Below are positions 20,647 to 47,600 of a stretch of DNA of 55,265 nucleotides, piece by piece. The position numbers were made by a program, and so were the translations under genes. Source of the DNA: a virus; IMG/VR virus record IMGVR_UViG_3300037508_001536, positions 1-55,265 of that record; one strand, given 5' to 3'. Positions within the stretch are counted from its first letter, which is position 1, and each line of letters starts with the position of its first letter. The notes beneath the pieces are model-generated. The model worked only from the letters and a program-made list of their open reading frames with translations, ran no database searches and had not been told where the DNA came from.

Positions 20647-23600
20647 GATCTAGCAGACGAAAGTGTCCATTTTCCATTGATAAAAATAAAAATTCCTTTG
20701 GTCCCAACAGATGCTGATAGTCCTAATGGATTGGAATAAGATATAACAAAAACTGGTGCTTGTCCAGCTCTTCTTCCAGATACATAATGTGCTTCTATTC
20801 TTGCTTGATTGCCTGTTCCTATTGTTCCTATTGCTGTCACAGACGGTTTCCCTATAGGCTCATAAAAACCACTAAATCTGTCGTATCTGCATAATAACTT
20901 GGTTCCTCTTGGTGCGGTATAGCCCGTTTTATCTATAACATATACTAATCTTCTATATCCGTTTTGCACAGGCTCTTTATTATATTCTATATCATCAATA
21001 AAAGCTCTTGTAGAATATGTACTATCATAATCATCTTCTTTAATCATGTCACTTTCTAATGTGACATAAATATTTCTATATGGACATTTATTTTCTGTTT
21101 TATTTTCTAAAAATTCTTGTAGTGTTGATATGTCTGTTCTATTAGTTACTATAAATGGCGGCAAAATCTCTTCTTTGCAGCCTCCGCCACTAGCATCCCA
21201 TACTCTTCTCTCATTATCCCATCTAACATCGATTGGACCAACAGGCCAAAGATCAGGCCTTTCTGCCCAATTAAGATAGAATTTTTTAGATGGTTTATTT
21301 TTTTTGGTCCATTTTCCATTTCCAGTATTTATACCATTTCCGGTGCCTTTCCATTCGTATCTTGTTGTAATTATATCTCCTAATGGAGCAGTGTCTCCGG
21401 TTGATACTTCGTATTTACCAAATGTTTCTAAATTATTCGAACCAAACTTATTATTTCCAGTATCGGAAACAAGCTGAAATCTCAACTGTCTTCCTTTATC
21501 GTCTATGCTATATGGCATATCATAAGCATTTGGTATAGGATATCCATCAGTATCGAATCCCCAGCCATGCATCATTAATGGGCCTCTCAGGGCTAAAAAT
21601 CTTTGATTGAGTAGCACATTAATATTTTCTAAGTCTTGAACCTTAGTATCAAATCTAGAAAAATCAGGATTATTTCCATCTCTATAAGTATTAATATTAG
21701 TATTGATATAAAAACTTTCTTCGGTAGGATTATATTCTCCTCTGCTAATAGCGCCAATAGAATGTCTGCATCGATCAATACCAGAAGCATATGGGTTTCT
21801 AAATTCTCCAGATGAAACAACTATTGGATTTAAACTATATAAATTAATATCTGGTAATCCTGTTTCTCTATCCGGAAATTTATCATTTTTCTTAACTTGT
21901 ATCTTTGCTCTGCTACAAACTGGGCAAGGAATTGGCACGTCTGCTCCTGGCGATTTATCATCATAGAATGTAGTGCTTAATCCCTCTCCAGGATTAGTAT
22001 GATAGTCGAAATAAGGTATTGTAATATATCTTTTATTATAGCAATATGGACAAGTTGTATCTGTATTACCGTTTCCTACCGGAACACCGCTACCGGCTAC
22101 ATATGTACTAATATGAAAAGTTCTATTTTTTTGTGTTGGATAAAAAGATACCGGAGACATTAGTCCATCCAAACTCATAGCGGCCTTACTATTATATTGC
22201 TCTAATAATTCAGCCCCTATTTCCTTTCCCATCACGGCACCAACCCATGAATACATTCTCTTTTGATTTAAAAATCTTATTCGATCTTCAATAGTGTTTC
22301 CAATTGGTAAAGGGTTGTCTCCAACGTCCTCAACAAGATTAGTATTTATATTTGTCCACCAAGCAGGATTTTTTAAACTAGTAATATTTTGTCCGACAAA
22401 AATTTCTACTGGGCTTTCTCCATAGAGTTGTGTTTTAAATTTATCAATACCAAACGGAGTTCTGCCTGTCCTTGCTTCTTTTAAAGTTTTTAATCTTTCT
22501 GCTTCCATTTTTGAAGTAAGATTATTTTGTACGCTAGCTATAGCTTTTTGTAATTTAGTAGTATCTTTATTAAATTCTCTAATAGCATCAGAATAGGTTT
22601 TACTAAATAGGCCTGTTTTTGGATTATAGGTTTGAAACTGATATGTTGTAGTGACACCATCAATACCCACCTGTATACTAATAGTACTTATTAGGGGCCC
22701 ATTAGATGATACTCCTCTATGATCTATTCTTAAACAATCATATGTAACTTCTCTATATCCATTTCTTTTGGTATCAAAAAAAGTATTCGGAATATATCTT
22801 ACTCGATAATTATCATTATCAAATCTATATTGGTTTGCTGGTGGAGTAGAGTTTGGATTATCAAAAAATATTCCACCTAAACCAAATATTGGCGGACCTA
22901 CAATAGATATGGAACCTCTTTCCAAAATTGTTTGATAATTAACATCACTATTTAATCTATAACCAACGGCACGATCCAAAGCGCTAGACGATCCATATTT
23001 CCATGGCACTAACTCTGTGTCATATTCTACTTTAGAATTATGAATTAGATTATTAATATATGGTTGTGCAATAAAATTATCAGCATAATTTGTCCAAGGA
23101 CCATAGCAGAATTGATTACTTTTTAGAGGTATAGCAAAAAAGTATGGATGAGCAGCTCTTGGCGCCATCCTTGCGTGTTCAACGCTAGGATTTGATTTTG
23201 GTCCTGTAGTTACTAAATATCTAGGATCTATTTCTGGTACAATATAAGCTTTTAGATATCTAATATAGTTAACCTCCGTTTTAAGAATACGTATATCTTC
23301 TAATATCTGATCTGCTAATTCAGTATCTCCATTTTCTAATGCTTCATTTCTAGCTTCTCTAGCTTGATTAAGTCTATTTTTAATTTTCATATAAATAGCA
23401 CTATCCTCTATAGCTATATTAGCGATAATAGACAATCCTGGATCTTTTACATAAGCTAGACTAGTATCAAAAACATCTAACTTATTAACTTTCATGATTG
23501 CTCTAGGATCAGTAAGATTAATAATATTTTTGTAAATAATTCTTCCATAATTAGCTTTAATAAATAATTTCGACGATCTTGGAGACTGTCGTCCAAATGG

Positions 23601-26600
23601 TTCTTTTTTAGAAGAAACCGGGATAATAACATAGTCGGCATCTGATCCTCCTCCTAAACCAGATATATCTAAAGAATGAACACCAAAAGTAAGTAAATCT
23701 ACATCTGGTAAGGATTCTCTTGCATTATTTACTGCTGTTGGCCACTGATCTTTTAATGTTTCTAATCCCTCAACAGTCGGATTGTCTAAATATTCTTCTA
23801 TGGATTCATTAATACTTTCCCACATAAGTCCCCAAGTCATTGATATATTAGCTTTATCTAAAGTGCTATAGCAATTAATAGTTGTTCCAAATTCTCTAAG
23901 TTCTTTCATGCTCTCTGTTTCTCTTTTTTTCTTAATACCATGTAATATCTGTCGTATTCTTTCTGTAGTTTCTGGTCTATTATCATCATTCATATTTCTT
24001 ATCATGCCCTCGATCTCGGCTTTAACCCCATCCAGTGCTGCCTGCATTTCTATTCCAACATTATTGTCTCTGGTTCCAAACAATCTTTCTATTCTTGCTT
24101 GAGCATCTAATTGACACCATCTTTGTCTAACATCATCTATGTTTAGACTATTATTATATCCAGCTATTGGCTCTATAAGATTATTTTCATCAGTAAAAAT
24201 TTTTGATGCATTAGAACCAATCATTATGCAGTCGTCAATGAAGTTGCCTGGTTCTTCCCATGCTCCCTCAGTTAACTGGTAGTTTCCAAAAATTTTATTA
24301 CTACCAGCATATACAGCAATACTACTATATACTCCTGGTATTCTAATACTAGCATATTGAGAATCTCTATATAAAATCATATCCGGTAGCTTAACCATAT
24401 ATTCCTTACCATAGTATCGGTCCGCTAAATTTTTAATAAACTCACAAACTATTTGTAAGTCCTTAATAAAATTATGATTCAAATATAAGTTCCAATTCAT
24501 ATTCAGATCAGTCTTGTGAGGATTTGCTGGTTGAGAGTTTATACCATCTTGACTAATATTTTGTTCAGATATTCTGGCCCCTCTGCTTAACCCGCCGCCT
24601 TTCAAATCGTCTTTAGTAACTCCATAATATGTTCCAAAATCTTCATTAGGAAATAAATCTCCTCTAAGTTGATAAGCTGAAACTAGCATCATAAATAAAT
24701 CAGGTTTGCTATATTTACTTTTACCTAAACAATACGCTAAATAACTATCAAAACTTTGAGATGCTCTCATCTCGCTTTCTGTAACAACAAATCCTGGCTT
24801 ATTGTAAATATATTGTCTTTCTGGATCTGTACCTAATGGTTGCCAGAAACCAGCGGCAGAACCGGAACCGGCGGGATTTGGCAAATCTTCTGCGTTAGGT
24901 TGATTATTTCTTCCTGCTGGAAGAGTGCCTCCTCTATCTAGTCCGTTAGTTATGTCTTGAGGTATTCCATTACCGCTATTGAATATGGTATGATCATATA
25001 ATGATAGTGGCTCTCCTATATTTAAATTTGGTAATTCGTGCATATAAAAACCAACTACTATTTGATTTGTCCACAAATCAAGATGTACTGGTCTTATACT
25101 TCTAAATTCGTTAGCATCATCAGCGGGCGGCAATCTTTCTTCTAAAGTTCTGCCGAAGTACGGACATATCCAATCGTTATGCAAATTCAAATATCTGCTA
25201 CGAGGAGCATCAAAGCCAGTAACTGGTACGAAGCCTCCTTCTTGAAAATCAGGCGTATCATCCATCGTAGGATCCTGATTGGATTGATTTCCACCTGGCT
25301 GTTCCGGATTATCGGCACAATTTGGCTCTTCCCTCCCTTTACTAGGACATGGCGTTGGAACAACATAAGCACATGTGATGTCAATATAGTGGGCATCTAA
25401 AGTTTGACCATCTGGTAATTGTCCTGGGGTACAAGGTATAAGTGGCCTAGGTTGCACGTCCGGATTCAAATCGTTTTCTGTGACAATATGACTTCTAAAT
25501 GGAACCAAAGAGCGACTACTAATTCTATAATTACCTTGAGTAATTTGTTCGGTTCTTCCTGTATAGCTAATATCGACTTCTCCATCTTGACGTCTAATAA
25601 TATCAGAATGCTCATCTTTCCATTTATTATCTATTCTTTGATTAGTAAATCTAACATTTCTTTCAGTATCATTAATATTTATTCTATCCCCAATATATGG
25701 TCCTAGACTCAATGTGGAAATATATGGATGTCGCGTTGACATCACATCAGGAACTCTTGCTTTATTCCAAGGTCTATTTAAAGTGATAAATTTTTTAAGA
25801 ATAGGATTATAGATATAATTAGTTTGAGCATATGGAAGTCTATAGTTTTTAATTTGCAATAATCTTTGTTGAGGCCCGCCTATAATAAATTTATGAGTAA
25901 CATTTTCATTAACGTCTTGGCCAAAATTACTATTAGATATAGAAAATCTCTGATTTTCTAAATTTGTAACAATAGAGCGTATATTATATGGGGATCTATA
26001 AGTTGTCCTATCAACAGTCATTATTTTGATCACAAACTGATATAGACTATCATTAGTAATGGCGGGAATGACTCTTGTGGTGTAATCTGTTCCGTTTGCC
26101 GATGTTAATTCTTGCAATAAAGAAGATATGCTCTTTGATGTATTTTCAATTCTATAGTCTGATATTAATCCTCCAATATCAGATAAATCAAGACTAAAAG
26201 TATTATATAATGGTGGAGGATTATTTATAACATTTCTATTAGTTCCTATTGTTGGTGTTATAATACCAAAGTTTTTAACATCTACAACCCTGCCATTAAT
26301 ATCAGCCATAGATTTCGTTAATATGCGTCCAAATGGAGAAAAAGCAGCATCTCTGGCTAATCTAGTGTGAGAAGATGTTAAAGCTGCTAGTCCAGACAAC
26401 ACATCGACTGCTCTTAATCCATTATCATTAAGATTGGATCCCCCAAAAAAATCTATTCCGAAACTTTCTAAAAATCCATAAACATTAAAAATATTAGGAA
26501 TATTTCCCTGACTCAATAGTCCATTATAATTAAATTGACTTAAATCAATATTATTAATAGGTGTTCCTTTAATGGGTCCTCCTGATATAGTATTCGCTAT

Positions 26601-27365
26601 TTCTGAGCCAAAAATAGCTCCACCATAAGGATCCAATACGAGCCAACAGTTATCTAATAAATTCTCAAAACCATCTATAGTAACACTATATGTTATACCT
26701 CCTGGTCTATTATTTCTTTCCCAACTTTTAACCAATCCTATAAACTCAAAATTATCAAACTTAAAATATACTGGAGTATTAATAATATCGTAGGTCCATA
26801 AACCACCGGGCGTATTAAGAGGTCGTACATTATGACCGGCGTCCATAGATACTGTACCATCCGGCTGTACCCTAGTACCTGTTGCAAAAAATCCGGGATC
26901 TTCCCATGGCCAATATTTAGAGACAAATTTATTATTTACCCATTCATAATATATTTTACCAGGAACATTTTTTTCTTTTGACACATTAGCTACATAAGGG
27001 CCCCCTAGTTCATTCACATAACAACTATCACCAACACATGTATAATAATGATTATCCGGATAAGAAGTGGTATTATAGTGTGGAATATCATAAAAATTTC
27101 GACCTAGATTAGTATTTCCACTATGACCACTAGGCAATGGCAGTCTCGATGGCTCGTCTGGCAAAGTAGGAGATAGCTCATTATGAAGATGTCCGTAATC
27201 TGCTGGTTGGTTTTGATAAAATTTTCTAAAAGGAGCTTGACCAAAAGGCTGAATATCTTCTACTAGCTCAACAGTAAGACTGCTGCGACTACCGCCCCAG
27301 CCAATATTACTAGAAAAACTAATAACACTAGCTCCTAAAAATAGCGTTTGTCCCACAACCTTCAT
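20643..27365 (-). CDS. giant predicted tail/baseplate hub-like protein, 2240 residues
   Basis: A single 2240-codon frame, one base after the 667-residue gene and overlapping the next gene by ATGA. AGGGA precedes its ATG. Near residues 180-250, FKFDNFEFIGLVKSW then TYSVTIDGFENLLDNCW resembles the beta-barrel pattern of phage hub proteins (gp27/Tal-like N-terminus), which is the main reason for the hub suggestion. A Pro-rich hinge lies near 660-720. A helical, charged region occurs around 1120-1200 and 1340-1380. At about 1771-1818 two CxxC pairs (CPYC and CPVC) about 45 residues apart form a probable zinc-binding module, rare in tail proteins. No lysozyme or peptidase motif was seen. The family is not identified; a structural role at the tail tip is inferred from order and composition. 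Confidence 0.7.
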   Translation of the reverse strand: MKVVGQTLFLGASVISFSSNIGWGGSRSSLTVELVEDIQPFGQAPFRKFYQNQPADYGHLHNELSPTLPDEPSRLPLPSGHSGNTNLGRNFYDIPHYNTTSYPDNHYYTCVGDSCYVNELGGPYVANVSKEKNVPGKIYYEWVNNKFVSKYWPWEDPGFFATGTRVQPDGTVSMDAGHNVRPLNTPGGLWTYDIINTPVYFKFDNFEFIGLVKSWERNNRPGGITYSVTIDGFENLLDNCWLVLDPYGGAIFGSEIANTISGGPIKGTPINNIDLSQFNYNGLLSQGNIPNIFNVYGFLESFGIDFFGGSNLNDNGLRAVDVLSGLAALTSSHTRLARDAAFSPFGRILTKSMADINGRVVDVKNFGIITPTIGTNRNVINNPPPLYNTFSLDLSDIGGLISDYRIENTSKSISSLLQELTSANGTDYTTRVIPAITNDSLYQFVIKIMTVDRTTYRSPYNIRSIVTNLENQRFSISNSNFGQDVNENVTHKFIIGGPQQRLLQIKNYRLPYAQTNYIYNPILKKFITLNRPWNKARVPDVMSTRHPYISTLSLGPYIGDRININDTERNVRFTNQRIDNKWKDEHSDIIRRQDGEVDISYTGRTEQITQGNYRISSRSLVPFRSHIVTENDLNPDVQPRPLIPCTPGQLPDGQTLDAHYIDITCAYVVPTPCPSKGREEPNCADNPEQPGGNQSNQDPTMDDTPDFQEGGFVPVTGFDAPRSRYLNLHNDWICPYFGRTLEERLPPADDANEFRSIRPVHLDLWTNQIVVGFYMHELPNLNIGEPLSLYDHTIFNSGNGIPQDITNGLDRGGTLPAGRNNQPNAEDLPNPAGSGSAAGFWQPLGTDPERQYIYNKPGFVVTESEMRASQSFDSYLAYCLGKSKYSKPDLFMMLVSAYQLRGDLFPNEDFGTYYGVTKDDLKGGGLSRGARISEQNISQDGINSQPANPHKTDLNMNWNLYLNHNFIKDLQIVCEFIKNLADRYYGKEYMVKLPDMILYRDSQYASIRIPGVYSSIAVYAGSNKIFGNYQLTEGAWEEPGNFIDDCIMIGSNASKIFTDENNLIEPIAGYNNSLNIDDVRQRWCQLDAQARIERLFGTRDNNVGIEMQAALDGVKAEIEGMIRNMNDDNRPETTERIRQILHGIKKKRETESMKELREFGTTINCYSTLDKANISMTWGLMWESINESIEEYLDNPTVEGLETLKDQWPTAVNNARESLPDVDLLTFGVHSLDISGLGGGSDADYVIIPVSSKKEPFGRQSPRSSKLFIKANYGRIIYKNIINLTDPRAIMKVNKLDVFDTSLAYVKDPGLSIIANIAIEDSAIYMKIKNRLNQAREARNEALENGDTELADQILEDIRILKTEVNYIRYLKAYIVPEIDPRYLVTTGPKSNPSVEHARMAPRAAHPYFFAIPLKSNQFCYGPWTNYADNFIAQPYINNLIHNSKVEYDTELVPWKYGSSSALDRAVGYRLNSDVNYQTILERGSISIVGPPIFGLGGIFFDNPNSTPPANQYRFDNDNYRVRYIPNTFFDTKRNGYREVTYDCLRIDHRGVSSNGPLISTISIQVGIDGVTTTYQFQTYNPKTGLFSKTYSDAIREFNKDTTKLQKAIASVQNNLTSKMEAERLKTLKEARTGRTPFGIDKFKTQLYGESPVEIFVGQNITSLKNPAWWTNINTNLVEDVGDNPLPIGNTIEDRIRFLNQKRMYSWVGAVMGKEIGAELLEQYNSKAAMSLDGLMSPVSFYPTQKNRTFHISTYVAGSGVPVGNGNTDTTCPYCYNKRYITIPYFDYHTNPGEGLSTTFYDDKSPGADVPIPCPVCSRAKIQVKKNDKFPDRETGLPDINLYSLNPIVVSSGEFRNPYASGIDRCRHSIGAISRGEYNPTEESFYINTNINTYRDGNNPDFSRFDTKVQDLENINVLLNQRFLALRGPLMMHGWGFDTDGYPIPNAYDMPYSIDDKGRQLRFQLVSDTGNNKFGSNNLETFGKYEVSTGDTAPLGDIITTRYEWKGTGNGINTGNGKWTKKNKPSKKFYLNWAERPDLWPVGPIDVRWDNERRVWDASGGGCKEEILPPFIVTNRTDISTLQEFLENKTENKCPYRNIYVTLESDMIKEDDYDSTYSTRAFIDDIEYNKEPVQNGYRRLVYVIDKTGYTAPRGTKLLCRYDRFSGFYEPIGKPSVTAIGTIGTGNQARIEAHYVSGRRAGQAPVFVISYSNPLGLSASVGTKGIFIFINGKWTLSSARS

Positions 27366-29376: not shown

Positions 29377-31245
29377 TTAAATATTTCTTGTCCTAAATAC
29401 ATTGTATGTATGTCTTGACCCTCCAGTTTCGATGCGTGGAACTGGCGCGTATGCTATGTATTTATTAAGTGACGAATTAAATAATATCTGTTTAACTTTT
29501 CCGTCTGTATTTTCTGTAAATGTTGACGGAATTGGAGTATTATAATTCGACATTCTAACTGTTGAACCATTTTTTACATAACACAAATCGAACGAAGATA
29601 CTATTACAAAACTATCACTACTACCCACGGTATCTAACAAAATAAAATTATCTGTGAAACGTTTTTTAATATACAAAGATCCTTCTACACTAACAAGTAT
29701 TGCTGTTTCCTGGAAACTCGTCACCGAAAAATGTTTGATCGATCCAAAGTTTCTGCTACCATTAAAAGATTGTGTATATGTCTTTTGTATAGTCCATGCT
29801 ATAGTATTATTTGTAATAGAGCCCGCAAGCAAGTACATAGCTGATCCCGCGGACCCAACCACCATAGTTACTGTACTAGGTGATATTTTATGTATACTAA
29901 TATGAGTCCAGATCGTGTTTAAGGCATTAAGATCAGATATAGGAGTCCATGTGTCACCAAAATCTGTACTATAATACATATTTTTAAGATTACCATCACA
30001 AGCCACCAACACAGACAAATCTTCGCTACTATCAAATAGCGATATTGCATTAGGCGTAGATTGTGAACTGATCGCACTCCAATTATTACCACCATTTGTG
30101 CTTTTATATAGTGTTTGATTGCCTAGCGCTATATTAATAGTATTATTAGTATTAGATTTAATTATTTTATAGTCAAGTTTTTCTGATTGGATAGAGCCTC
30201 TAAGAACACTAATATTATTATTGCTAAGATTTATTTTTAGTAATCTACCAGCTTGTGAATTAGCATCTGGTGAAAGGATCTTGGTATATGTAGCCCGAGC
30301 ATAGTCAGGGGGGGCACACATCTCATCATACTCAAAGCTTAGATCATAAATTCGTGACAAATCAAAAGATACGGTTCCGTCCGAAGAAGTCAAAGGGTAG
30401 TATCCGGGACCACCATCACAAGTCTCAAATACATCTAGTTTCTGTGAAATTAATATTACATTCTCATTATTTAATATCAAATTATTTGTTGCCTCATATC
30501 CTGAACAAGGAAAAACTAAAGATGCTAGATAACCGAAGGTTATCTGACCACAGCCTTCGATAACTTGCGATGGAGCATCATATCTTCGTGCTTGTAACAA
30601 ATCATAATTTTGTAAATTTTGTTCTAATATTGGAATATTAGTCCATTCTAGGAAATTCCTAGAAGGAGTAATAGTAGGTGTTGGAGATTTAGTTGGTGAT
30701 AAAGATGGAGTAAAATTAGGAGTTAGTGTTGGTGTTAGGGTTACTGTTGCTGAATTAGTAAAATTAGGAGTATTCGTCGGAGTAATTGTAGAAGTAGCCG
30801 TTGCGGTTAATGTTGGAGTTGCTGTTAGTGTTGTAGTAATAGTTGGAGTGATGGTTGGAGTGGATGTAATTGTTGGTGTTAATGTGGTCGCTTTTGTTGG
30901 AGTAGCAGTTGGAGATATGGTTGCTGTTGCGCTAGGTATTGGAGCGTCACAATCACTAAATCCTGGACAAGTAATAAAATTACTATAAGTTAAACTATTA
31001 TTATCGGTTAAATCAAAAACATTAACTTCTAGTAAAACATTATTAATTCTACTGTCTTTAGTCAATAAAACAAAAGCATTTTGAGTATCTCTACTACTTC
31101 TAAAATTAAATAGATATTTATCTAATTTAGCCTCATACTGATTTCTACCATAGTGTAATCTGTATATTACTTGGTAATCATGACAGTTTATAAGATTTTT
31201 TAATTGAACTTTAATTATATCTGTAGTATATATTATTTCGCTCAT
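29377..31245 (-). CDS. Asp-box (BNR-like) tail protein with a Thr/Pro-rich linker
   Basis: A 622-residue protein. Residues 1-100 form a beta-rich attachment-like domain. About 103-200 is a mucin-like Thr/Pro/Ser linker of repeated T-P-T units. The C-terminal part from about 200 contains two Asp-boxes, STNGGNNW (near 378) and STDFGDTW (near 424), spaced as in sialidase/VPS10-type beta-propellers. Such propellers in phages bind or cut glycans at the host surface; no catalytic Arg triad or Asp pair could be assigned, so binding is more likely than cleavage. A good ribosome-binding site, GAGGATATAATG, precedes the start. Homopolymeric T-P linkers of this kind usually space a receptor-binding head away from the tail. 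Confidence 0.68.
   Translation of the reverse strand: MSEIIYTTDIIKVQLKNLINCHDYQVIYRLHYGRNQYEAKLDKYLFNFRSSRDTQNAFVLLTKDSRINNVLLEVNVFDLTDNNSLTYSNFITCPGFSDCDAPIPSATATISPTATPTKATTLTPTITSTPTITPTITTTLTATPTLTATATSTITPTNTPNFTNSATVTLTPTLTPNFTPSLSPTKSPTPTITPSRNFLEWTNIPILEQNLQNYDLLQARRYDAPSQVIEGCGQITFGYLASLVFPCSGYEATNNLILNNENVILISQKLDVFETCDGGPGYYPLTSSDGTVSFDLSRIYDLSFEYDEMCAPPDYARATYTKILSPDANSQAGRLLKINLSNNNISVLRGSIQSEKLDYKIIKSNTNNTINIALGNQTLYKSTNGGNNWSAISSQSTPNAISLFDSSEDLSVLVACDGNLKNMYYSTDFGDTWTPISDLNALNTIWTHISIHKISPSTVTMVVGSAGSAMYLLAGSITNNTIAWTIQKTYTQSFNGSRNFGSIKHFSVTSFQETAILVSVEGSLYIKKRFTDNFILLDTVGSSDSFVIVSSFDLCYVKNGSTVRMSNYNTPIPSTFTENTDGKVKQILFNSSLNKYIAYAPVPRIETGGSRHTYNVFRTRNI
30660..30936 (-). repeat. 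Thr/Pro-rich low-complexity repeat coding for a linker
   Basis: About 90 codons of imperfect T-P-T/T-x-T-P units within the Asp-box protein. Repeats vary in codon use and register, so they are degenerate rather than recent copies. Confidence 0.85.
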
Positions 31246-31257
31246 TATATCCTCGTC

Positions 31258-32766
31258 TTATGAAGCGCAGCTATCAGTTCTACAAACCAGTCCTATACTA
31301 TCGTATGTTTTTATATTAGTATTAGAATGTATTAGTTCAAAGGTCAATAGTGTCTGAGCATAATCGGTTAAGTTTGTGCTCATAATAGTATTCACTTTTC
31401 CTACTCCTCCACTACCAAAATAAATTTCTCCTGTGCTAGGACTAAAAACCAGAAAAACAGTACCGGTTGATGGAGTACTGCTAAAACTATATGTATATCT
31501 ATCGCCAGGAATAGCATTATTAATATTAACACTTAAAAACTTTTGACCTTGACAACATCCAGAGGGCAATTCTATCAAAGGCGATCCACTAAATAATGCA
31601 CTAGCATATTTGATACATGGTAAGCAATCATCGCATTCTATTATTCCTTGCTTGCTAGCTATTATCTCTCCGCATTCAGAAGTTAACTTTAATTTTAAAT
31701 TAGTATATAATTTTTTTTGATTAAAGTCTTTTTCCGCTAAAGTATCCAAAGAATATGGTAATAAATTTTGTGTGCCGCTAGGACAGTTGCCGGATGGATA
31801 ACAAAACATTAACTGAGTAGATATTGTTTGTTGCGCCGTTTCATTGGTAGATTCTGGCATCAAAAAAGTTCCAGAAATAGGCTTGAGTATAGTCGGCCAA
31901 TTACTATCTTCACACTCAAAAAGATAATTATAAGACTTACCAGGAGATAAATCGTATGCTATAGTATTAAGATTAATAATATTGCCAGTATTGGATGTTA
32001 AAGAAATTTTACTAGGAAAATCAACTCTAGGTTTAGGTAAACAATTTTTACAATGAACTAATACATTATTACTAAATATTTTTTCATTATTACAAGCATC
32101 AGGACTAATTGATAATTCAAGATTAATATAAATATTATTTTTGTCATTAAATAATGGTGGCGTAAAATTCAAAATATTAGAACCATTACAACAACCACTA
32201 TTAGAACAAAATTTTAATTTATGTCTCAAAGTATAAGAGTCGTTATTTGCAACAAAAGATCCTCCTGTTGGAGTTATCATATATGCTGGCCAATTTGATC
32301 CTATGCTTTTTATGCTATAATTATATATTGAATGAGTTTCTAATCCATTAAATGCCGTTGTAAAATCCACAGTTGATTTATCTGTTAAAATTGTTTGCTC
32401 AGGAGATATTACTATATCTATATTAGGTAAACAATTATTACATTTAACTAATTCTGTAGAAGATAAAGTAACATAATTATCGCTTAAGCTTATAACTCTA
32501 GCAACAACATTAGTAAAAATTTCTTCGTCCTCAAAACCGCATGATGATAAATTATACGGCAAAACATTTTGGTTATGAACCGATCCTGTTGTTGGTAAAA
32601 AACTAATACTAGTATTAATACTAGCTGTTTTACTCGAAGCAGTAAATAATCCGCTCATAGGTGTTGCTATAGCTGGCCAGTTTCCTCCAAGACCAACAAT
32701 TTCATATCGGTAGTCTTCTCTTTTAATTAAGCCACTAACAGGAATAGAAATGTGGAAATTATTCAT
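31258..32766 (-). CDS. tail protein built of Cys-containing Ig-like repeats (three clear copies plus one degenerate)
   Basis: A 502-residue protein made of about 130-residue units. Each unit has Y-x-Y-x...NWP-x4-P-x-SG (GGNWPAIATPMSGLF, SNWPAYMITPTGGSF, DSNWPTILKPISGTF), usually a central FC-x-x-SG-x-C motif (FCSNSGCC, FCYPSGNC) and an end motif C-x-x-CLP (CNNCLP, CKNCLP, CDDCLP). A fourth unit is degenerate (TYSFSSTPSTGTVF). These look like small beta-sandwich domains with possible disulfides or metal sites. AGGGA lies before the ATG. The upstream gene carries two more copies and stops exactly at a C-x-x-CL, so the two genes may once have been one. It is probably a fibre or decoration protein; no enzyme motif is present. 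Confidence 0.62.
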   Translation of the reverse strand: MNNFHISIPVSGLIKREDYRYEIVGLGGNWPAIATPMSGLFTASSKTASINTSISFLPTTGSVHNQNVLPYNLSSCGFEDEEIFTNVVARVISLSDNYVTLSSTELVKCNNCLPNIDIVISPEQTILTDKSTVDFTTAFNGLETHSIYNYSIKSIGSNWPAYMITPTGGSFVANNDSYTLRHKLKFCSNSGCCNGSNILNFTPPLFNDKNNIYINLELSISPDACNNEKIFSNNVLVHCKNCLPKPRVDFPSKISLTSNTGNIINLNTIAYDLSPGKSYNYLFECEDSNWPTILKPISGTFLMPESTNETAQQTISTQLMFCYPSGNCPSGTQNLLPYSLDTLAEKDFNQKKLYTNLKLKLTSECGEIIASKQGIIECDDCLPCIKYASALFSGSPLIELPSGCCQGQKFLSVNINNAIPGDRYTYSFSSTPSTGTVFLVFSPSTGEIYFGSGGVGKVNTIMSTNLTDYAQTLLTFELIHSNTNIKTYDSIGLVCRTDSCAS

Positions 32767-32776
32767 AATTTAATCC

Positions 32777-34018
32777 CTATAAGCAATCATTACAATATAT
32801 TGTGATTGGAGAACTATATACACTACTACTATTTTGGAATAAATAATATGGTTCAATACAAGTATTTGGACTAATCTTTAATACAAAAGAAGCATAGTAA
32901 GATTCAATAAATTTTGGATCAATACTATAGTCTAAAACAGAAGAATCTGTTTTTGGACATAATCCGGTTGTTGGACAAAAGAATAATTTTGACATGAGCG
33001 TAAAGTCTTCATTAGTTTGATATGATGTTATTACTCCGCTAATAGGGGTAATAAACATAACTGGCCAGTTGCTTCCTACGCTAACATATTCGTATGTATA
33101 ATTTTGAGTAGGTTCCAAATTAGAAATTATACCAGAAATATCCACAGTATTTGTAGAAGTAAGATTAATAACAGACTTGGGGTCACCTGATGGTTTGCTA
33201 GGATCATCAGTATATTTTAGATTTACACGAACTCGAGGTAAACAATCTTCACACTGTATAGTAAATGGACTGCTTCTAATAGGTAGTCCACTAAAAGATA
33301 TAGGTTTAACTTCTAGTTCTAGTGTACTATATAAATTTATTTCATTAAAGTTAGGACATCTATTTTTAATATTACCCATAACTATATCTGGATCGATTAC
33401 ACAAGAACAACAAGCTCCAGATGTTGCACAAAAAGATAATACAGAACTTAATTGTAATCCGCTTGATGATGGTCTTATAATACCGGATATTGGAGATACT
33501 GTAATTGGCCAATTAGCAGATAGTCCTTTGTACTCATAGGAATATGTTTCGTATTGTTGTAGTTGTCCTATCTCTGGTCGTATCACAACAGTATTTCCAG
33601 AATCTGATGTTAATAATATGTTTTCTATATCCGAAACAATTGGCGCTAAACTAGTATCTGTAAAGCCAGCCGCTGTTTCTCCTATTATTGGAACTACTAG
33701 AGGAATACTATCAAGATCTCTCACAATAACATAATATGATTGTTTTGAGTCTAATTGTGTTAAAGTACAATCTGGATGAGGTTGATATCCGACAGCAGTA
33801 TTACCTAAATCATCAACCAAACCTATTCTGCGAGTCCAAAATACTGGAATATCATCATTAATAGTTTGACTAGCATATATAGTATCTACAGATTGTATAA
33901 AAGCGTTATATTGAGATAATAATATTGGGTCTTCCAGTACCTCTGGAGGAGCATTTATTAGATCAAGAGGTTTGGATCCGGCATATGAAAAAATATAAAA
34001 TTGATTATTAATAATCAT
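32777..34018 (-). CDS. tail protein with N-terminal unique domain and two Cys-containing Ig-like repeats
   Basis: A 413-residue protein. Residues 1-130 are unlike its neighbour (IPVFWTRRIGLVDDLGNTAV, then YYVIVRDLDSIPLVVP). Two copies of the NWP/Cys repeat follow: SANWPITVSPISGII with FCATSGACCSC and CEDCLP, then GSNWPVMFITPISGVI with FCPTTGLC and a terminal CNDCL. The protein ends at that point, ten bases before the next gene, which opens with a further copy of the repeat in a different frame. A candidate extended -10 promoter lies upstream in the largest gap of the tail block. It is likely a fibre-associated structural protein. Confidence 0.6.
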   Translation of the reverse strand: MIINNQFYIFSYAGSKPLDLINAPPEVLEDPILLSQYNAFIQSVDTIYASQTINDDIPVFWTRRIGLVDDLGNTAVGYQPHPDCTLTQLDSKQSYYVIVRDLDSIPLVVPIIGETAAGFTDTSLAPIVSDIENILLTSDSGNTVVIRPEIGQLQQYETYSYEYKGLSANWPITVSPISGIIRPSSSGLQLSSVLSFCATSGACCSCVIDPDIVMGNIKNRCPNFNEINLYSTLELEVKPISFSGLPIRSSPFTIQCEDCLPRVRVNLKYTDDPSKPSGDPKSVINLTSTNTVDISGIISNLEPTQNYTYEYVSVGSNWPVMFITPISGVITSYQTNEDFTLMSKLFFCPTTGLCPKTDSSVLDYSIDPKFIESYYASFVLKISPNTCIEPYYLFQNSSSVYSSPITIYCNDCL

Positions 34019-38092: not shown

Positions 38093-41000
38093 TTAATAAA
38101 AATATGGCCCTATTAATCTACCATTTGGACGACACCAAAATGGTACATTATTATTATCTATAAGCTCTGGATCATCACAGTCTATGTCTTCTCCGTTACC
38201 GTTCGGTGGTAATGGTGGCGATGTTGTTCCGAATACCCCGTCAACCCTTGGCGATGCGGTAGAATTTGACCAGAATGTGTTGCTGCTGGAACCACCAGCT
38301 TGTGTCGATGTTGGTATGGCTCCGGCGACTATGTTTTGTACCGTTGGTGATTCTTCTTCTTCTGCTGTTGGCACTTCCGGTTCGAAACCAATATTTGTAA
38401 GAGGAGATCTAATTGTGCCATCTTTAACAATAAGTCTATCAACAACCAACCACCCACTTACAGTTAAATCTGCAAATAATTGTTTTGGTACGGTATTGGC
38501 TGGGCTATTTTCTGGTAATTTTTCTGTGGCCACAATATATGGAGAATCTGTGTTGATTGTGGTAACAGGTTTGCCGGATACTAAAATAGTCGAAACTGGC
38601 TCAAAATATGCTGCTTTATGCCACTGATTAATATTAGGTAAGAAATATTTTTTATTATCATTATAACTAATTAAATATGTATCATTTTCTGTAAATATAC
38701 TATATGCTCCATCTTCTAATACTTCCTCTATAAATTTATTAGCAAAAGCATTTCCAGAAGGTGTTCCGTTATGCAGCCAATTAGTAAATTTAATAGCATT
38801 CAGATAACTTACAAAATTTACAGGCTTATTAGCCATATCTATTTTTGTTGTATAAGAATATACTAATCCGTTCGATGTTCTTAGGATGCCTCCTGAATTA
38901 TCGGAAGACATCCTAGTATCATATAGTCCACTACTTGTATAATTTATTCCTGTTGCTACCGAATTAAGAAATCTAGCATATTGGCTATTGGTGGTTTCAA
39001 ATGTTGCTATTCTATAACTTTGATTAACATATCCAAGATTCACAAAGGTTTCTGCGTCATACACACTTGACATTTCCGATGATCTAACAAATAGTAGCCC
39101 AGTATCAGGCACATTTTCTGGATCATTAATATTCTGAAAACTAAAATTTAAAATTGATGTTATAGCAGAACTATCCGTTATGTTCGATATACTAGCAACC
39201 CTAAAACCAATATGAGAATATCCATTTATTCCGGATGCTGATTCTATACTTTTAAGATTAGGCGCCGATACTGTTTGTACCGATCCACCAGCAGCGTACT
39301 GTACGGGATTGTTGGCTTCTATTGGATCAGCTTCTAACCATTCCGAAACGTTTCCATTTTGATCGTATGTTCCGTAGTGACTAACCACACCATTGGTACC
39401 AACAGACGATAATACTCCACTAAATAGGTTATTAGTATTTGTATAATTAAAATTAGCAGAGCTAAAGTTGTTGTTGATTCCGCTTCCGCCAATATTAATT
39501 GGTATGGCGGCTATGGCACTATTTTGTGTTGCATAAGTATTGTACACTCCAGATAGTTGATTTTTTAAACCTATGCTCGAATATACTTTTAGTCCTGGTG
39601 TTTGACTAGTTCCAAATACGGTAAAATCTATTTGTTTTTGTAAAGAATTAAATACAGTAGGAATATTAGGTCTTATACTAAGAGTAATAGATGTAGAATC
39701 GGACTCAACATCTGTTGTGCTCTTTTGAATACTTAAATATCCACCTTTGGATACGGATAATATTGTCAAATCATCCAATACTGTATTAGTAACATTTTGA
39801 TCTAGTAATAATTCGATAATCGAATTTTGTGCTAAAATCACATCAGTTACTGTTCTGTAAAGAATTGTGTTTCCATTGACGATCTCAACCTGATCACCAA
39901 TACTAAATTCTTCGATAGGAATAGCTGTATCAAAAAGAACCTGTTTTAAACATATGCTACATGGTCTTGGGGAATATTTATTCCAAATAATATCTTTTTC
40001 TGTAAGAAAATAATCATCAATGCTAAACGAACCAACAACATTCTTATTAGCATCTGTTGTTAAAAATCTATTACCAGAAATATTACTAAAAATTAAACCA
40101 TTATTTCCACTATTTACAGATATACCATTTATTGGTACTATAGTTTTATTATTAGATAATGCTAATATGCTACTAGCAGCAATATTAGGTAGTGTTATTG
40201 TGCTTGCAGATATATTACTAGCGGATAAAATTCCATTTGAAGTTATTGATCCCGATCCCAAAAATAATGTATTAAAATTTGTGGTTATACTATTATTATT
40301 ACAAACTATATTCGCATTATTGGTTCCTACTGTGACGGAAGATGATCCGAGCGCGCTAATATTGGAACCGGACAATGCAATATTTCCATTATTGCTAATA
40401 TTAAGCTGTCTACTATTATTATATCCTATATTGATATTGCTTAAATCTCCAGAAACTATATTTTGTTGGTTATTTCCAGAAGCAACGCTTAATACCAAGC
40501 CACCATATCTATTTGTTGGACTAGAGGCCAAACCTCTAACCATAGCATAGTCTGTTTGAACATTATTAGAATCTTTACCAGCTAAATTTAGTATGGAGCA
40601 TACTGTATTATCGGACAGGGACGATGATGGCTTGTGATAAATAGTCAGTTTAGCTGGTTGACAACTTGTTCTATTTTCTAGTCTTAATATTTCGCTACAA
40701 CTATAATTTACAACATGAAAAATAGTTTGTGGTCTGGATCCAGATGGAATATTAATACCAACCCTACCATCATAGCTAAAAAATAAATTCCTATATGGTT
40801 GTCCGCTACCATATACTATAAAGTCGCTAGCTTGATAATCTTGATTAAATATTGTATCTGCTGAACCGGAAGTAGGTATAACAGCATGGGCTAAAGACTC
40901 TGAGCTTGATCCTAACAATAGTTTATTAGTATTTCCAGAACTCCAATACAATTCGGAACCTAACAGTCCATTAGATCCGTCATTATATTGAAAAGAATAT

Positions 41001-41653
41001 GCTGCTCCGCCAGGATTACTTTGAGCAGAAAAAGTTGGATTAGATAACGAAGCATAGTCATAGTGATCGTTCTCATTTAATATGTACCAAGTTTGTCCAT
41101 CGCAAACTAGCCTGATTGAATTTTTTGTTGACTCAAAAATTGAACCATCATTATTTCTAATAATTACATTATGAGCAGACGAGATGGGCTTGATATCGAC
41201 AACTACATTTCTAGCGTTGTTAGATTGAGGTAATACACAATCAATATTTTTATCATTATTATCTACCAAATAAATGCTTGTTACATTATCAATAGTAAAG
41301 TGATCATTTTTAAGAATAACATTATTAAAACTAGTATTAAAATTAGTATTATTTACAAAGAGATAAAATTCATTTTCATTACCAGTAAATATTACTGACT
41401 TATTATTATTTGATGAGCTAGATATTTCGATTTTTTTGATACTTAATAAGCTATCAATAAATTGAACTTCGCCAACTCCAATTTCCCATTTATATCCATC
41501 TTTGATATTTCGAATTAAATATGGTATAAAATATCCAATACTATCTTGTTCTAATAGTTTATAACCTGTTATAACCTTATTTGGAATAATAATATTTTGA
41601 TTAATAGAGCAATAAAAGCCTATATTATTAAATATTTTAGTTATTTTATTCAT
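38093..41653 (-). CDS. tail fibre protein with a circularly permuted FGE/C-type-lectin domain
   Basis: A 1186-residue protein immediately after the tape measure gene. Residues ~45-90 (GYKWEIGVGEV then KIEISSSSNNNKSVIF) match the N-terminal attachment domain of phage fibres. Residues 200-600 are long beta-rich fibre sequence with many S/N/G. At about 702-818 lies the C-terminal half of an FGE-sulfatase (SUMF1-like) domain: YGTYDQNGNVSEW, GGS and IGFRVAS. At about 850-1050 lies the N-terminal half: YRIATFETTNSQYARFLNSV, KPVNFVSYLNAIKFTNWLHN, EDGAY and FLPNINQWHKAAYFEP. The halves are thus in reversed order. In phages this fold usually serves as a ligand-binding head, not an enzyme. The region sits between the GGYLSIQ...IDFTVFG and ADLTVSG motifs shared with the neighbouring fibre. 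The last 130 residues are Pro/Ser/Gly-rich. Confidence 0.78.
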   Translation of the reverse strand: MNKITKIFNNIGFYCSINQNIIIPNKVITGYKLLEQDSIGYFIPYLIRNIKDGYKWEIGVGEVQFIDSLLSIKKIEISSSSNNNKSVIFTGNENEFYLFVNNTNFNTSFNNVILKNDHFTIDNVTSIYLVDNNDKNIDCVLPQSNNARNVVVDIKPISSAHNVIIRNNDGSIFESTKNSIRLVCDGQTWYILNENDHYDYASLSNPTFSAQSNPGGAAYSFQYNDGSNGLLGSELYWSSGNTNKLLLGSSSESLAHAVIPTSGSADTIFNQDYQASDFIVYGSGQPYRNLFFSYDGRVGINIPSGSRPQTIFHVVNYSCSEILRLENRTSCQPAKLTIYHKPSSSLSDNTVCSILNLAGKDSNNVQTDYAMVRGLASSPTNRYGGLVLSVASGNNQQNIVSGDLSNINIGYNNSRQLNISNNGNIALSGSNISALGSSSVTVGTNNANIVCNNNSITTNFNTLFLGSGSITSNGILSASNISASTITLPNIAASSILALSNNKTIVPINGISVNSGNNGLIFSNISGNRFLTTDANKNVVGSFSIDDYFLTEKDIIWNKYSPRPCSICLKQVLFDTAIPIEEFSIGDQVEIVNGNTILYRTVTDVILAQNSIIELLLDQNVTNTVLDDLTILSVSKGGYLSIQKSTTDVESDSTSITLSIRPNIPTVFNSLQKQIDFTVFGTSQTPGLKVYSSIGLKNQLSGVYNTYATQNSAIAAIPINIGGSGINNNFSSANFNYTNTNNLFSGVLSSVGTNGVVSHYGTYDQNGNVSEWLEADPIEANNPVQYAAGGSVQTVSAPNLKSIESASGINGYSHIGFRVASISNITDSSAITSILNFSFQNINDPENVPDTGLLFVRSSEMSSVYDAETFVNLGYVNQSYRIATFETTNSQYARFLNSVATGINYTSSGLYDTRMSSDNSGGILRTSNGLVYSYTTKIDMANKPVNFVSYLNAIKFTNWLHNGTPSGNAFANKFIEEVLEDGAYSIFTENDTYLISYNDNKKYFLPNINQWHKAAYFEPVSTILVSGKPVTTINTDSPYIVATEKLPENSPANTVPKQLFADLTVSGWLVVDRLIVKDGTIRSPLTNIGFEPEVPTAEEEESPTVQNIVAGAIPTSTQAGGSSSNTFWSNSTASPRVDGVFGTTSPPLPPNGNGEDIDCDDPELIDNNNVPFWCRPNGRLIGPYFY
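38485..39550 (-). other. FGE/SUMF1-type (C-type lectin fold) domain with reversed halves
   Basis: Coding order is C-half first (Y-x-TYATQNS near 39545, GTYDQNGNVSEW near 39340-39375, GFRVAS near 39195-39212), then N-half (FETTNSQYARFLN near 38970-39010, PVNFVSY and NWLHN near 38770-38820, LPNINQWHKAAY near 38600-38645). In normal family members the N-half comes first and the chain runs from KAAYY to the YPTxS block. Here the break lies in that loop. Confidence 0.75.
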
Positions 41654-41654
41654 A

Positions 41655-44600
41655 TTATGTAAATATTCTAGGGTCTACATCTATATCAAAATCCATAGTA
41701 TTATTCTGTGGGTTTTTTGCTTTAAGATCCGCAAATGCGCCTCTGATAGCAGATATAACTATTCCGGCTATATCCGGACGTAATTGATTCAATACTGTGT
41801 CTCCATTAATTGTAACGACAACATCATGTTTTCCTGTTATAGTAATTTGTGGTGGTATATAAATATTACTAAGTATATTAGCAATATTATTTAATCTATT
41901 AACAAAATTATCAATACTAGCAAGATCGGCGCCATTATTAGATACACCACCAGTAGCATTGTTTGGTTGTTTTAGACCAGACAGTGCTTTATCAAAAGCT
42001 TCTGTTATACTACTACTAACGGCTCCTACTAGACTATTTAAATATTTGGTAAAGTCAAAAGATGGAGTAGCGGAACCTGCGGATCCCATGAATCCTCCAA
42101 CAAATTTATATTCTGGAATATAACCACCTTTATTTAGATAATTAACTATCCCTCCTCTGGCATAGTTACCGCTATTAATAGCCTCAAGAACAGGCTTATA
42201 TTTTTGGGTTGAATCTCTGTTGATTACAAATTCACCTGGTGTTAACATCGCAGGAACGGTATCTGTTCCTTTGGGTTGAAAATTAATCAATGCGCCATTT
42301 TGAGCATATACTAAGCCGCCAGTGGCGAAACTCCCAGGTTGAGAATACCCAGCACCAACAGTGATTCCTCTTCTTTGTCTTAATCTTTCTCTCTGTTTTG
42401 CTTCTCTTTTTCTCTTTAATTCAGCGACCACTTCTTTTACTGGTCGATATGGATTTAATTTAAATTCATCGAAAGATCTTTGCTCTACACCCTCATTAAC
42501 ATTTTTAAGGTATTTTAGTGCAACAAACATATCTTTTCTGCTATAGTCTCCTGGTTCTCTATCATCGTCGAGATTTCTCCAACCACCTTTCATAGCAACA
42601 AGAGATAATAGGCTATTATATCTACTATTTTCGTAACGAGTAAGAGGATCTGCTGTTTTCGGATTAGTATTAGATGCTGCTATGGCTTTTGCCGTAACTA
42701 CTTCTAATAATTTTTTACCAAGTTCTTCTTGAGAAGTTGTACTATCATCTAGTACTCCTGTTAGATACGGATCAAGCTTACCCTCTTCATAGGATCTTTT
42801 TTCTTTACCCTTATTAACATTATCTAAGTATTTTAATGTAACAAACATTTCTTTTCTACTATAATCATCATCATTTTTCTTGTGAGAATCAAGATTTTTC
42901 CATCCACCTGGAGTTAAAGCAATTAAGTTAATAAGACTATTTAATCTGCCTTTTTCGGTATTATCTAAAGGAGATGCTCTTCTAGGTTTGCTTTCTGATA
43001 CTTTCTTGGCTTTTACTATAATTTTTTCTAATAAAGCTTTACTTTTAGCTGCTGATAATTCATCATAACTATCGTGACCTTCTTTAGCAGCTTGTCTGTC
43101 TAAATCAGCCGCAGTGACACCGGCTCTTGGTCCACTCGGTTGTTGTTGTGGCTGCTGAGACGATTCTGTTTTCGGATATCTCCATGGATATAATGCTCTC
43201 ATGACCCTATCCATATACTCCGCGTGTTGTCTCTTTCGTTCTTCATCGATAGGGGACGTGTATTCTGGTATACCATACAGAGGATCTCCAGGTTTTCTTC
43301 CTTTTTTATCTGGTATAAAAGGTAGTCTATTACCAGGAAGCCCACCTGTAACATTAGATCGTTGTCCTCTAAGCATCGTACCATCTGGTAAAACAACAGT
43401 GCCCGGAGCAGGATTTCTACGATTTAATTCTTCTTGTGCAACATCGCCTCCTGTTGCTCGATTATATTCCCTATCAAAATCTTGCATTCTCTTATCTGCT
43501 TCTTCTTCTTGTTTAGTCTTTTGTCTAGGAACAATACTATCTTTAGTCCATGCTTCAACACTGTCCGCGTTGTCTTCTTCATTTGCCCAAAGCCTAGATT
43601 TTATTAATTTTTGTCTAATTTTAGAATTCTGTTCTGCTAAGATTTTATTTAATTCATTATCATCTATAGATAATCCTTTAGCTTTAAATATTTCTCTAAT
43701 ATGATGTTTTCTAATTTTATCGATATGATTTTCTAGTAAATCATGTGCCATATTTAAAAATTGTGGCTTTCCTGTGTTTCTACTAATCTCTAAATCGTTC
43801 AAAGATATGCCTATATTATTCGATAATTCTTGTCTAACTCTTGATAATTGATTAGACATAACAGCATTTAATTCTTCGTCTGAAATACTATTAAAATCTC
43901 TGGAAACCATAATTGCTCTGTCCAGAGGCATACCAGACTCTACTAACATATCCATAAGTTTTTGTTGATTTGCATCCGCTACAACTTTAACTCCAGGATT
44001 TTTTATATCCGGACCCATAGGAACAACATCTTTTATAAGATCGCCAGCACGAACAAAAAGATTTTTTATTTCTCTATCTGTTAAATTTATTTCTGGATCT
44101 AGCTCAAAGTTAGATTGACTCAATAATTTAAGAGCTTTTAAATCTGTTGTTTTGGTATTAATATAATCATCAGCATATCCAACAAATTCTTTATATAAAC
44201 TAGTTACTCCAGTTCTTAATGTAGTATGTTGTTTTTTATATGGATCGATTAATAGTTGTTTTTCTGCTTGTGTTCCTGTAAAATATTTGGATTCAATTTT
44301 ATTAGCAACTGATAGTGGCTCTTGTAGGCTCTTATGAATACTAATCATATTCTGTTTTCTACCAGCTAATCCTCCATCAGCATAATATCCGCTATTAATA
44401 CTTTGTAGTAATGGTAAATTTTTTCTTGTAGCATCTTTATTTATTACAAATTCACCAGGAGTAAGCATTGCCGGAACAGTATCTGTTCCTTTTGGTTTAA
44501 AATTAACTAATGTACCATTACTAGCATAAATTAATCCTCCTTTATTTTTAGTAACGGGTTGTTCTAATTTGGTTTGGTCTAAATTATTTGCTAAATCCAA

Positions 44601-47600
44601 GCCAAGTTGATCTATTGCTGATGCTAATCTATTATTAAATTCATCCATTCTAGCTTTAACTTCTGGACTGTCTGTACCAAGCTCGGAGAATGTCCAATTC
44701 TCTTGATCTACTTGTTCAACGGCTAAATTTTGTAATCTTTGTTGTGCCAAGCCTAGTTTTTCTTGTTCAGATGATATAGCCGACGCTATGTCCTGATTAT
44801 CATAGGTTAATGATCCCATATTTTGAGCAGATTCTAGCTCTTGTATTCTGTCCTGAAGCATAGCTACTTCTTTGATGGCTGATTCTGTGCTTATATCTAT
44901 TCCCATACTCCAATCGTTTGCTTTTTTATCCACTTGAGTCAAACGTCCCTGATCATCCGTTACGTATTCTTTAGTTTTGCTTTCTTCTAACATTCTGTCT
45001 GTTTTTGCTTGAGATTCCATAGCAACAGACGTATCTCTTGCAAGACCGGATCCTGCTTTGTAAACTTCTCCAGCAGTAGCTGTGCTTAATCCAACAACCG
45101 CTCCTGGAACACCACCAACTGTTGCTCCTTGTGCTGTTTTACTTAATACATTCTCATAATAAGCGGCCATAATATCTGCGGAACCATTTTCTTCCAAGCC
45201 TATTAATCCTGCTAAATCTGATCCTCCAACATCCCCGCTTCCTGTAGTAGCTGCTAAAAGACCTCGTTCTACTATGCCTCTTTGTTGAGCATCAACAGTA
45301 TCTGGAGTAGAGTTAATCTCTTCATAAACATCCGTTCCAGTTTGAAAAGCAACTCCAGCAATTCCTAAGTTTTTTGATAATCCTGTTGTTCCGGCTAGTA
45401 ATCCTGTTTTTCCGGCTAGCTCAGACGCATTTTGTGCTATATTTAATGCATCGGCACCTCCTTGTTTCTTTAGTCTCTCGTATGGGTCTTGTTCTGGAGT
45501 TTTTTCTAAAGTGGCTGCTTCGTATATTCCTCTACCCAGATTCATTGTTGATCCTACTATACCAGCAACTTCTCCAACAGGTCCAGAACCAGGAATATTT
45601 TCAATCATAGACAAGCTACTAGTAGCAATATCCAATCCGTCACCTTCTCGTACTGCTTTGATAGCCTCTAAAGTTGAATATACTGTATCTTTTGCTCCCG
45701 TTGCTTTGTCAATACCACGCAATGCTGTATTAGTATTGGTTTCTTCTCTTACTCTTTTACGATCAGCGACTGCCCGTTCTTCTTCTGCCCAATATCTACT
45801 ACTTTGTTCTGGCGTATTAACGCCTAGTCTTTCGTCAACATCGTCCATCCTACTATTTCTGGACGGCATAGCAGGAGCGATGTCTACTTGTTCCGGAATA
45901 TCATATTGATAATCTTTAGATGATAGACGTCGCATTTCTTCCTTTTGTTTTTCCTCAGCTTGTACTGGTGGTTTGATTGTAGGTAGCGGAGTAATAGGCT
46001 GATTAGGATCTTCTGGATATCTAGGTAGCGGAGTAATAGGCTGATTAGGATCTTCTGGATATCTAGGTAGCGGAGTAATAGGCTGATTAGGATCTTCTGG
46101 ATATATAGGAGGCTCAACTGTTGGTTGCGGTAAAGGAATTGGGGGCTGGGCTGGAGGAAGAGGCGGTATTTTATCTGGCTCAGGAATTTCCGGAGGTACT
46201 CTAGGTGGACTAGGAAGAGGCGGCATCCGTGGTGGTGGTAATGGTGGGGTTGATTCAGTTGGACCGTCCGGTATCGGAATAGATGGTATCGGCGGAAAAT
46301 CTGGTACTGGAAAGATTTCTGTTGGTATCCCCTCTTCGGTTGGCCCTGGCGTAGTTTTATCTTTACAGCAAAAATCTACTGTTTTTATATAACTAAGAAG
46401 CTCTTGTAGATTAGCATTGATAGGAATAAGATAACTTGTATAACTCGATATATTATTATTAAGATCTATTAAATTTTGAAGATTTTGAATAACATTTTTG
46501 GTCAAGATGACTAATTGATTTAATCTATTATTTCCAGAAAGACCTGTTTTTGTAACAGTATAAACAGCATTTATTACCTCGGTATCGTCACCACTAGGAG
46601 CAAAGCTTTGTGCTCTAATATTTCCTCCGTTTTGAGCATATACAATGCCTCCATTTGCGTAGTTACCACTATTGATGCTTTGTAACAATGGTAAATTTTT
46701 CTGTGTTGCTGCTCTATTTACAACGAATTCACCAGGAGTTAACATGGCAGGAACAGTATCTGTGCCCTTAGGTTGAAAGTCTATTAGTCTTCCATTACTA
46801 GCATAAATTAATCCACCTGTCTGCCGAGTTGCGGGTTTTGTGTCGGCAACTGGTGTTGAATTGAATAATGTATTAAATTGATTTTGAAGCGTATTTAAAA
46901 ATTGTTCCAATAAAGAAGACATCGCGGTGTCGCCACTCATAGTCTCCGGGTTGTACAGCGGTCTTGCCGTTATCAATACCAAAAGTGATAGCCAGTCATT
47001 TGTAGCTTTTGATTCCTCTAAAATTCTATTTGAAATTTCTTTATTGGTACTCGCACTATTTAGTATAATAGATGCTGTTTTTGTAGTAAGACTATTTAAT
47101 ATTTTAGATTGAGTATTAGTATTTTTATTAACATTTAGATTAGATGAAGTAATATTAAGTAATTGACGACTATCAGGAGACGGTGATAAATTTTGAGAAT
47201 CTACTCGTTGAACAGATTGTGTTACGCCTCCACTTTGTGCGTAAACAACGCCCCCTTTAGAATAGTTTCCACTATTAATATTTTGTAGAAGAGGTAAATT
47301 ATCTCTGGTTGATCTTCTGTTTACTACAAATTCTCCTGGGGTCAACATGGCCGGAACAGTATCGGTACCTTTAGGTTGAAAGTTTACCAATGTTCCATTT
47401 GATGCATATATCAATCCACCTTTTGCTCTGTTAATTGGTTCTTTAATTTCTAGTTGAATTTGATCTAATAAGCGATCACCATCTGGCAATGCTCCATAGG
47501 TATTACCGGTTAAGAAAGAGTGTGCTGGCTGAGCCTCATTATTTCTTAGAGTATCGAGATCTTTTCTAAAATTTTTGCCTATCATTAAATCTTCTTGACT

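Follow-up and report, generated by a model that had tools for sequence, protein, structure and literature searches.

Genes A and B and their surroundings

The window analysed here is the whole stretch of DNA in the IMG/VR virus record IMGVR_UViG_3300037508_001536 (positions 1 to 55,265; 55,265 bases), and its source is a large uncultured tailed phage. Two adjoining genes on its minus strand encode a common repeat. Gene A (32777..34018, 413 aa) consists of a conserved N-terminal domain and two Ig-like units and ends on CNDCL followed by the stop codon TAG; gene B (31258..32766, 502 aa) consists of three units with an NWP motif and a divergent C-terminal cap unit. Both open reading frames were present exactly where the original prediction had placed them, and its account of the junction, with gene A ending on YCNDCL-TAG and gene B starting 10 nt further on in another frame, was correct. 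The 10-nt spacer (32767..32776, minus strand) holds a TAA in the frame of gene B, two codons before its ATG.

The alignment of gene A showed that its first ~125 residues (33644..34018, minus strand) form a domain different from the repeat units, conserved across 12 aligned sequences and without a family match; the 12 gene A rows gave no match to PHROGs. It is followed by unit A1 (33236..33583, residues 146-261) and unit A2 (32780..33139, residues 294-413). Gene B carries unit B1 (32425..32751, residues 6-114), B2 (32035..32364, residues 135-244), B3 (31618..31971, residues 266-383) and the cap unit B4 (31285..31536, residues 411-494), all of them, like A1 and A2, on the minus strand. Unit B1 begins at the start of the gene, without the linker and strand that precede other units, and lacks the FC..C cysteines; the cap unit has neither NWP, FC..C nor CxxC.

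Genes A and B occupy a central place in a minus-strand run of eleven genes that extends from a 4527-aa protein to a 2704-aa protein. The 4527-aa protein (41655-55238), encoded upstream of A and B on the same strand, matched a tape measure family (8.9e-29), and Pfam domains of the fn3 and FGE-sulfatase type were found in proteins neighbouring A and B. Based on this gene order and these neighbours, the products of A and B are probably tail parts.

Several other genes were noticed. The FGE-sulfatase domain (2.9e-10) belongs to a 1186-aa protein of the tail run (38093-41653, minus strand), which may conceivably be the target of a diversity-generating element. The gene after B (29377-31245, minus strand) encodes a T/P-rich stalk and has a weak match to a BNR/Vps10-type propeller; its counterpart is a stub in the relatives L002 and L004, is longer in L003, and is replaced in L008 (13854-20540 of that contig) by a protein of >2229 aa with a long proline run that, by eye, reads like subtilisin-type protease, propeller and FGE-type domains. 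In a 2240-aa protein (20643-27365, minus strand), CPYC...CPVC pairs stand late in the sequence; searches of Pfam and PHROGs and tblastn against phages found no match to it. On the plus strand, a replicative DNA polymerase III alpha-type gene is divided into two open reading frames that flank a gene for a proofreading exonuclease (2-961, 1136-1837 and 1843-3456), and the split polymerase frames cover positions 377-615 and 622-1054 of PHROG 405.

Repeat unit, predicted fold and conserved cysteines

The original prediction counted six repeat units over the two genes. Five of them are clear: the pattern [NDE]WP-x(3,8)-P-x-[SGT]-G occurs at A169, A317, B29, B158 and B289, whereas 2000 shuffles of the A and B proteins averaged 0.001 occurrences and never gave more than 1. 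The sixth (B 411-494), however, is remote and has none of the signature motifs. The predicted cysteine motifs are indeed usual, FC-x4/5-C being present in four of the five clear units and CxxCL in all five. A profile made from any four of the clear units recovered the fifth (E 1e-22 to 1e-23), and since the pairwise identity among the five is only 29-40%, they are regarded as old copies. The segment B 411-494 gave no match to profiles built from window units alone; only the family-wide profile picks it up (about 1e-9, over 52 of its 113 positions), so that the cap unit is linked to the repeat family only through relatives. The unit profile gave no hit at E 0.01 against reversed proteins.

The predicted structure of the unit agrees with the proposed Ig-like character of the repeat. 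The AlphaFold2 model of B2 and B3, made with 49 rows of unit pairs (49 of 59 pairs were kept for folding), had a mean pLDDT of 91.6, and that of gene A with 12 rows scored 78.2. In the comparison with the PDB, from which the N-terminal domain of gene A was left out, Ig-like sandwiches were the best matches, as with the single-domain matches to pilus chaperones (e.g., FimC 3bwu_C, Z 8.8, rmsd 2.9 over 101 residues); NCX1 CBD12 (3us9) reached Z 9.4 but with rmsd 8.2 over 213 residues. Z values near 8.8 are common for Ig-like sandwich folds. Foldseek against viral models returned tail proteins and proteins of the Ig/BACON/PKD type at 7-13% identity, and a sequence search of solved structures gave nothing better than E 0.2. 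Judged by its predicted structure, the unit is an Ig-like/FN3-like beta-sandwich domain.

Weak Pfam matches of the 49 unit pairs at E 0.1 (PF16656 in 34, PhoD_N in 10, fn3 in 8) point to the FN3 group. At the gathering cut-off, neither window protein belongs to PF16656 (Pur_ac_phosph_N) or PF00041 (fn3): gene A scored 17.7 bits against PF16656, whose cut-off is 30, and gene B had no match. Whole proteins of relatives exceeded the PF16656 cut-off in five of six cases in one set and in one of eight in another, and the fn3 cut-off in two of six. The novelty claimed for the repeat is supported for the window proteins, which had no Pfam match above cut-off and no PHROG match of note.

The cysteines had been singled out as unusual for a protein assembled in the reducing cytoplasm, and they are both enriched in A and B and conserved as a set in the family. 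Gene A has 13 cysteines in 413 residues and gene B 20 in 502, the other nine minus-strand genes having 0.04-2.8%. For the family as a whole, 79 non-redundant units remained of 111 hits (E up to 1e-5) once those with <60 matched positions or ≥90% identity to a retained unit had been removed; among the 79 are three cap units that have none of the cysteines. The set consists of C-x5-C and C-x2-C. Profile columns 52, 58, 108 and 111 hold cysteine in 70, 67, 70 and 68 of the 79 units, respectively, and all four are filled in 59. Association within the pairs is strong (phi 0.63 for 52/58 and 0.89 for 108/111), and the link between the pairs is weak (odds ratio 5.5, Fisher p 0.021 over 79 units, uncorrected for relatedness), so one obligatory four-cysteine site is not favoured. 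The set is dispensable in at least some units, as it is incomplete or missing in B1 and B4 of the window.

In the models of all four window units studied, the first cysteine comes after one strand, and the last strand terminates in CxxC. The strand before C-x5-C would be strand E, and CxxC would stand at the end of strand G; the usual Ig topology presumably places both pairs at a common pole, turned towards the following domain. From there the pairs may stabilise each domain, either by binding zinc, should the protein stay reduced, or by forming disulfides after release of the particle, and this is the part of the proposed mechanism of which we are least sure. Disulfides in place of a metal site, oxidised after lysis or in a host with an oxidising cytoplasm, are a serious candidate, though we would stop a little short of backing them. 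The cysteines occur and vanish in tight pairs, and the two pairs are just weakly linked, as such bonds would have it. Against this, CxxC ends are common in metal knuckles too, and 2 of the 49 unit pairs matched the Pfam family zinc_ribbon_6 (best E 2.3e-5), a match that was not seen again when 14 whole proteins were scanned at E 0.01. The more elaborate proposal is a doubtful one: in this repeat family of large phages, four cysteines at the end of each Ig-like domain would form a metal clasp directed towards the domain that follows, zinc would make rigid a rod assembled in a reducing cytoplasm, and rod length would evolve by shuffling of units among the two or three adjoining genes.

Gene borders in the window and its relatives

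Relatives were taken from the IMG/VR viral_contigs collection, where a scan with the gene A alignment yielded 17 loci on contigs of 47-244 kb, which form 10 groups at >98% identity; earlier scans had found three loci with the same two genes and eight loci when the neighbouring 180-aa gene was used. No relatives were obtained by tblastn of A, B and the 667-aa and 2240-aa neighbour proteins in the phages collection, nor with the gene A alignment in genome_contigs, and gene B alone gave six pattern matches in viral_contigs, none of which was confirmed. The literature, followed by title and the start of the abstract, gave no description of the lineage or of a cysteine- or zinc-bearing Ig-like tail repeat, which is not proof that it is unpublished; in PMC12619734 (moraphages), neither Ig-like nor fibronectin occurs.

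Gene A is a separate gene in all 17 relatives, and the next gene carries repeat units in 16 of them, the exception being L032. No fused A+B was found among the 17 loci, as far as the scan reached; the lack of relatives with a fused form had been named beforehand, alongside proteomics, as evidence against the original prediction's reading of the junction. As the relatives have gene A separate, the A/B border is old and normal, neither broken nor frameshifted. The details of the border vary freely. Comparison covered 14 of 18 records; the other four, L018, L019, L020 and L027, match L017 or L016 at 99.9-100% identity. Of 11 distinct borders (the window and the 10 groups), three have a frame offset of 0 from A to the next gene, three of 1 and five of 2; the spacers measure 3-61 nt, and the stops are TAG, TAA or TGA. 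Gene A ends on the same CNDCL as in the window in L016 and L017, and at the same strand of the fold, without CxxC, in L021, L022, L024 and L025. Gene A of L023 has four units, and that of L029 has an added Pfam Big_13 domain.

The original prediction explained the junction either by a recent split of one long fibre gene or by a longer A-B protein made through frameshifting or read-through. A mutational split in this phage would account for the same repeat in adjoining genes, for a spacer of merely 10 nt and for a gene B that starts without the linker and first strand of other units. It is nevertheless very improbable, because gene A stands alone in all 17 relatives, down to 25% gene A identity, gene B of close relatives begins at the same place in the unit, and unit B1 groups with other first units of gene B.

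Programmed frameshifting or stop read-through deserves just as little credence: cases are described for other phages (PMC5009743 and PMC6669499), and in L021 and L022/L031 A and B share a frame and are parted by a single TAA and 3 or 6 nt, so that read-through could fuse them there and only there, but in the window the TAA in the spacer closes frame B, so no single shift (-2 to +2 over the last 30 codons of A, in simulation) enters B, read-through of TAG adds five codons before a TAA, and both offset and stop differ between close relatives (1 with TAG in the window, 2 with TAA in L016). In the simulation, gene B could be reached from A in the window only by TAG read-through plus a second shift, and no overlapping or shiftable frames that would join A to the Ig-like part were found there. 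The separate synthesis of A and B, by independent or termination-coupled initiation, is the reading we infer. A Shine-Dalgarno sequence before gene B was considered as support and dropped, since the operon shows no clear signal over background: the best match, AGG, has three letters, and as good a match occurred at 62.8% of 5000 random operon positions.

In the comparison of single units, window A1 pairs with A1 of L016 (81%) and A2 with A2 of L016 (83%), and by pairwise comparison B1 matches the first unit of the relatives' gene B. A form with three such genes (A, B and C) is present in 6 of the 10 relative groups (L021, L022/L031, L023, L024, L025/L026 and L029), and window B4 matches the last gene C unit in L021, L024 and L029. 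The maximum-likelihood tree was built from 73 of 74 units, one fragment of <70 aa being left out, over 114 columns, which is few. The clade of seven cap rows, including B4 and the relatives' last gene C unit, had support of 100/100, and the clade of six B1 rows 99/94. The group of penultimate units, which would include B3, reached 71/78, and B3 is at best weakly placed nearest to the relatives' penultimate gene C unit. Neither A2 nor B1, taken as a whole label, forms a single clade: L012, L028 and L029 differ, and among the eight B1 rows L012 and L029 fall elsewhere.

Taken from the unit matches by position and the single-unit tree, the window's gene B is most likely the start of a gene B joined to the end of a gene C, i.e., a B-C fusion and not an A-B split. 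The three-gene form is the more widespread one, which suggests, but does not prove, that the change went from three genes to the form in the window. Unit number also varies by whole units between the gene B copies of close relatives: L016 lacks the window's B2, and L017 has a B2-like unit and no close match to B3.

Probable tandem tail rods and known phage systems

We consider it likely that the locus comprises separate, neighbouring genes for tandem Ig/FN3-like tail rods or fibres, and not a split or frameshifted gene. Adjoining genes of the tail run would each encode a string of beta-sandwich domains, three such genes (A, B and C) being found in more divergent relatives. The products of A and B could serve as tail rods, fibres or decorations by which adhesion domains are presented or spaced, with rod length set by the number of units and varying by their gain and loss; the most likely role is that of fibres, spacers or decorations with an adhesion part. 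What is new here is the repeat family with its cysteine set; the A/B border is ordinary. A false lead, frameshift or gene decay, has been removed and a described repeat family put in its place, in which units correspond by position in 11 distinct phage groups and which shows multi-domain phage rods gaining, losing and fusing units across gene borders. Should the cysteines prove to bind metal, that would be an uncommon means of making a virion fibre stiff.

Among domain families, PF16656 and PF00041 are the closest. In most relatives gene C scores above the PF16656 gathering cut-off, as does one gene A, and the kind of fold is the same, but the repeat units described here carry the additional cysteine set. 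The Ig-like and FN3-like domains of phage virions, reviewed by Fraser and colleagues, as presented in PMC5009743, are mobile and variable in number. The likeness lies in small beta-sandwich domains on structural proteins in varying number; the present ones, in contrast, are in tandem, account for the greater part of two or three genes and have a conserved cysteine set, and no frameshift joins them in the window. Some phage capsid and tail proteins bear Ig-like extensions made by frameshift or read-through (PMC5009743 and PMC6669499). The lactococcal 936 phages and SPP1 resemble the locus in the Ig-like, adhesin-type extensions of their tail proteins; according to PMC6669499, these extensions are added to the major tail protein by programmed frameshift, whereas here the Ig-like units are encoded by separate genes.
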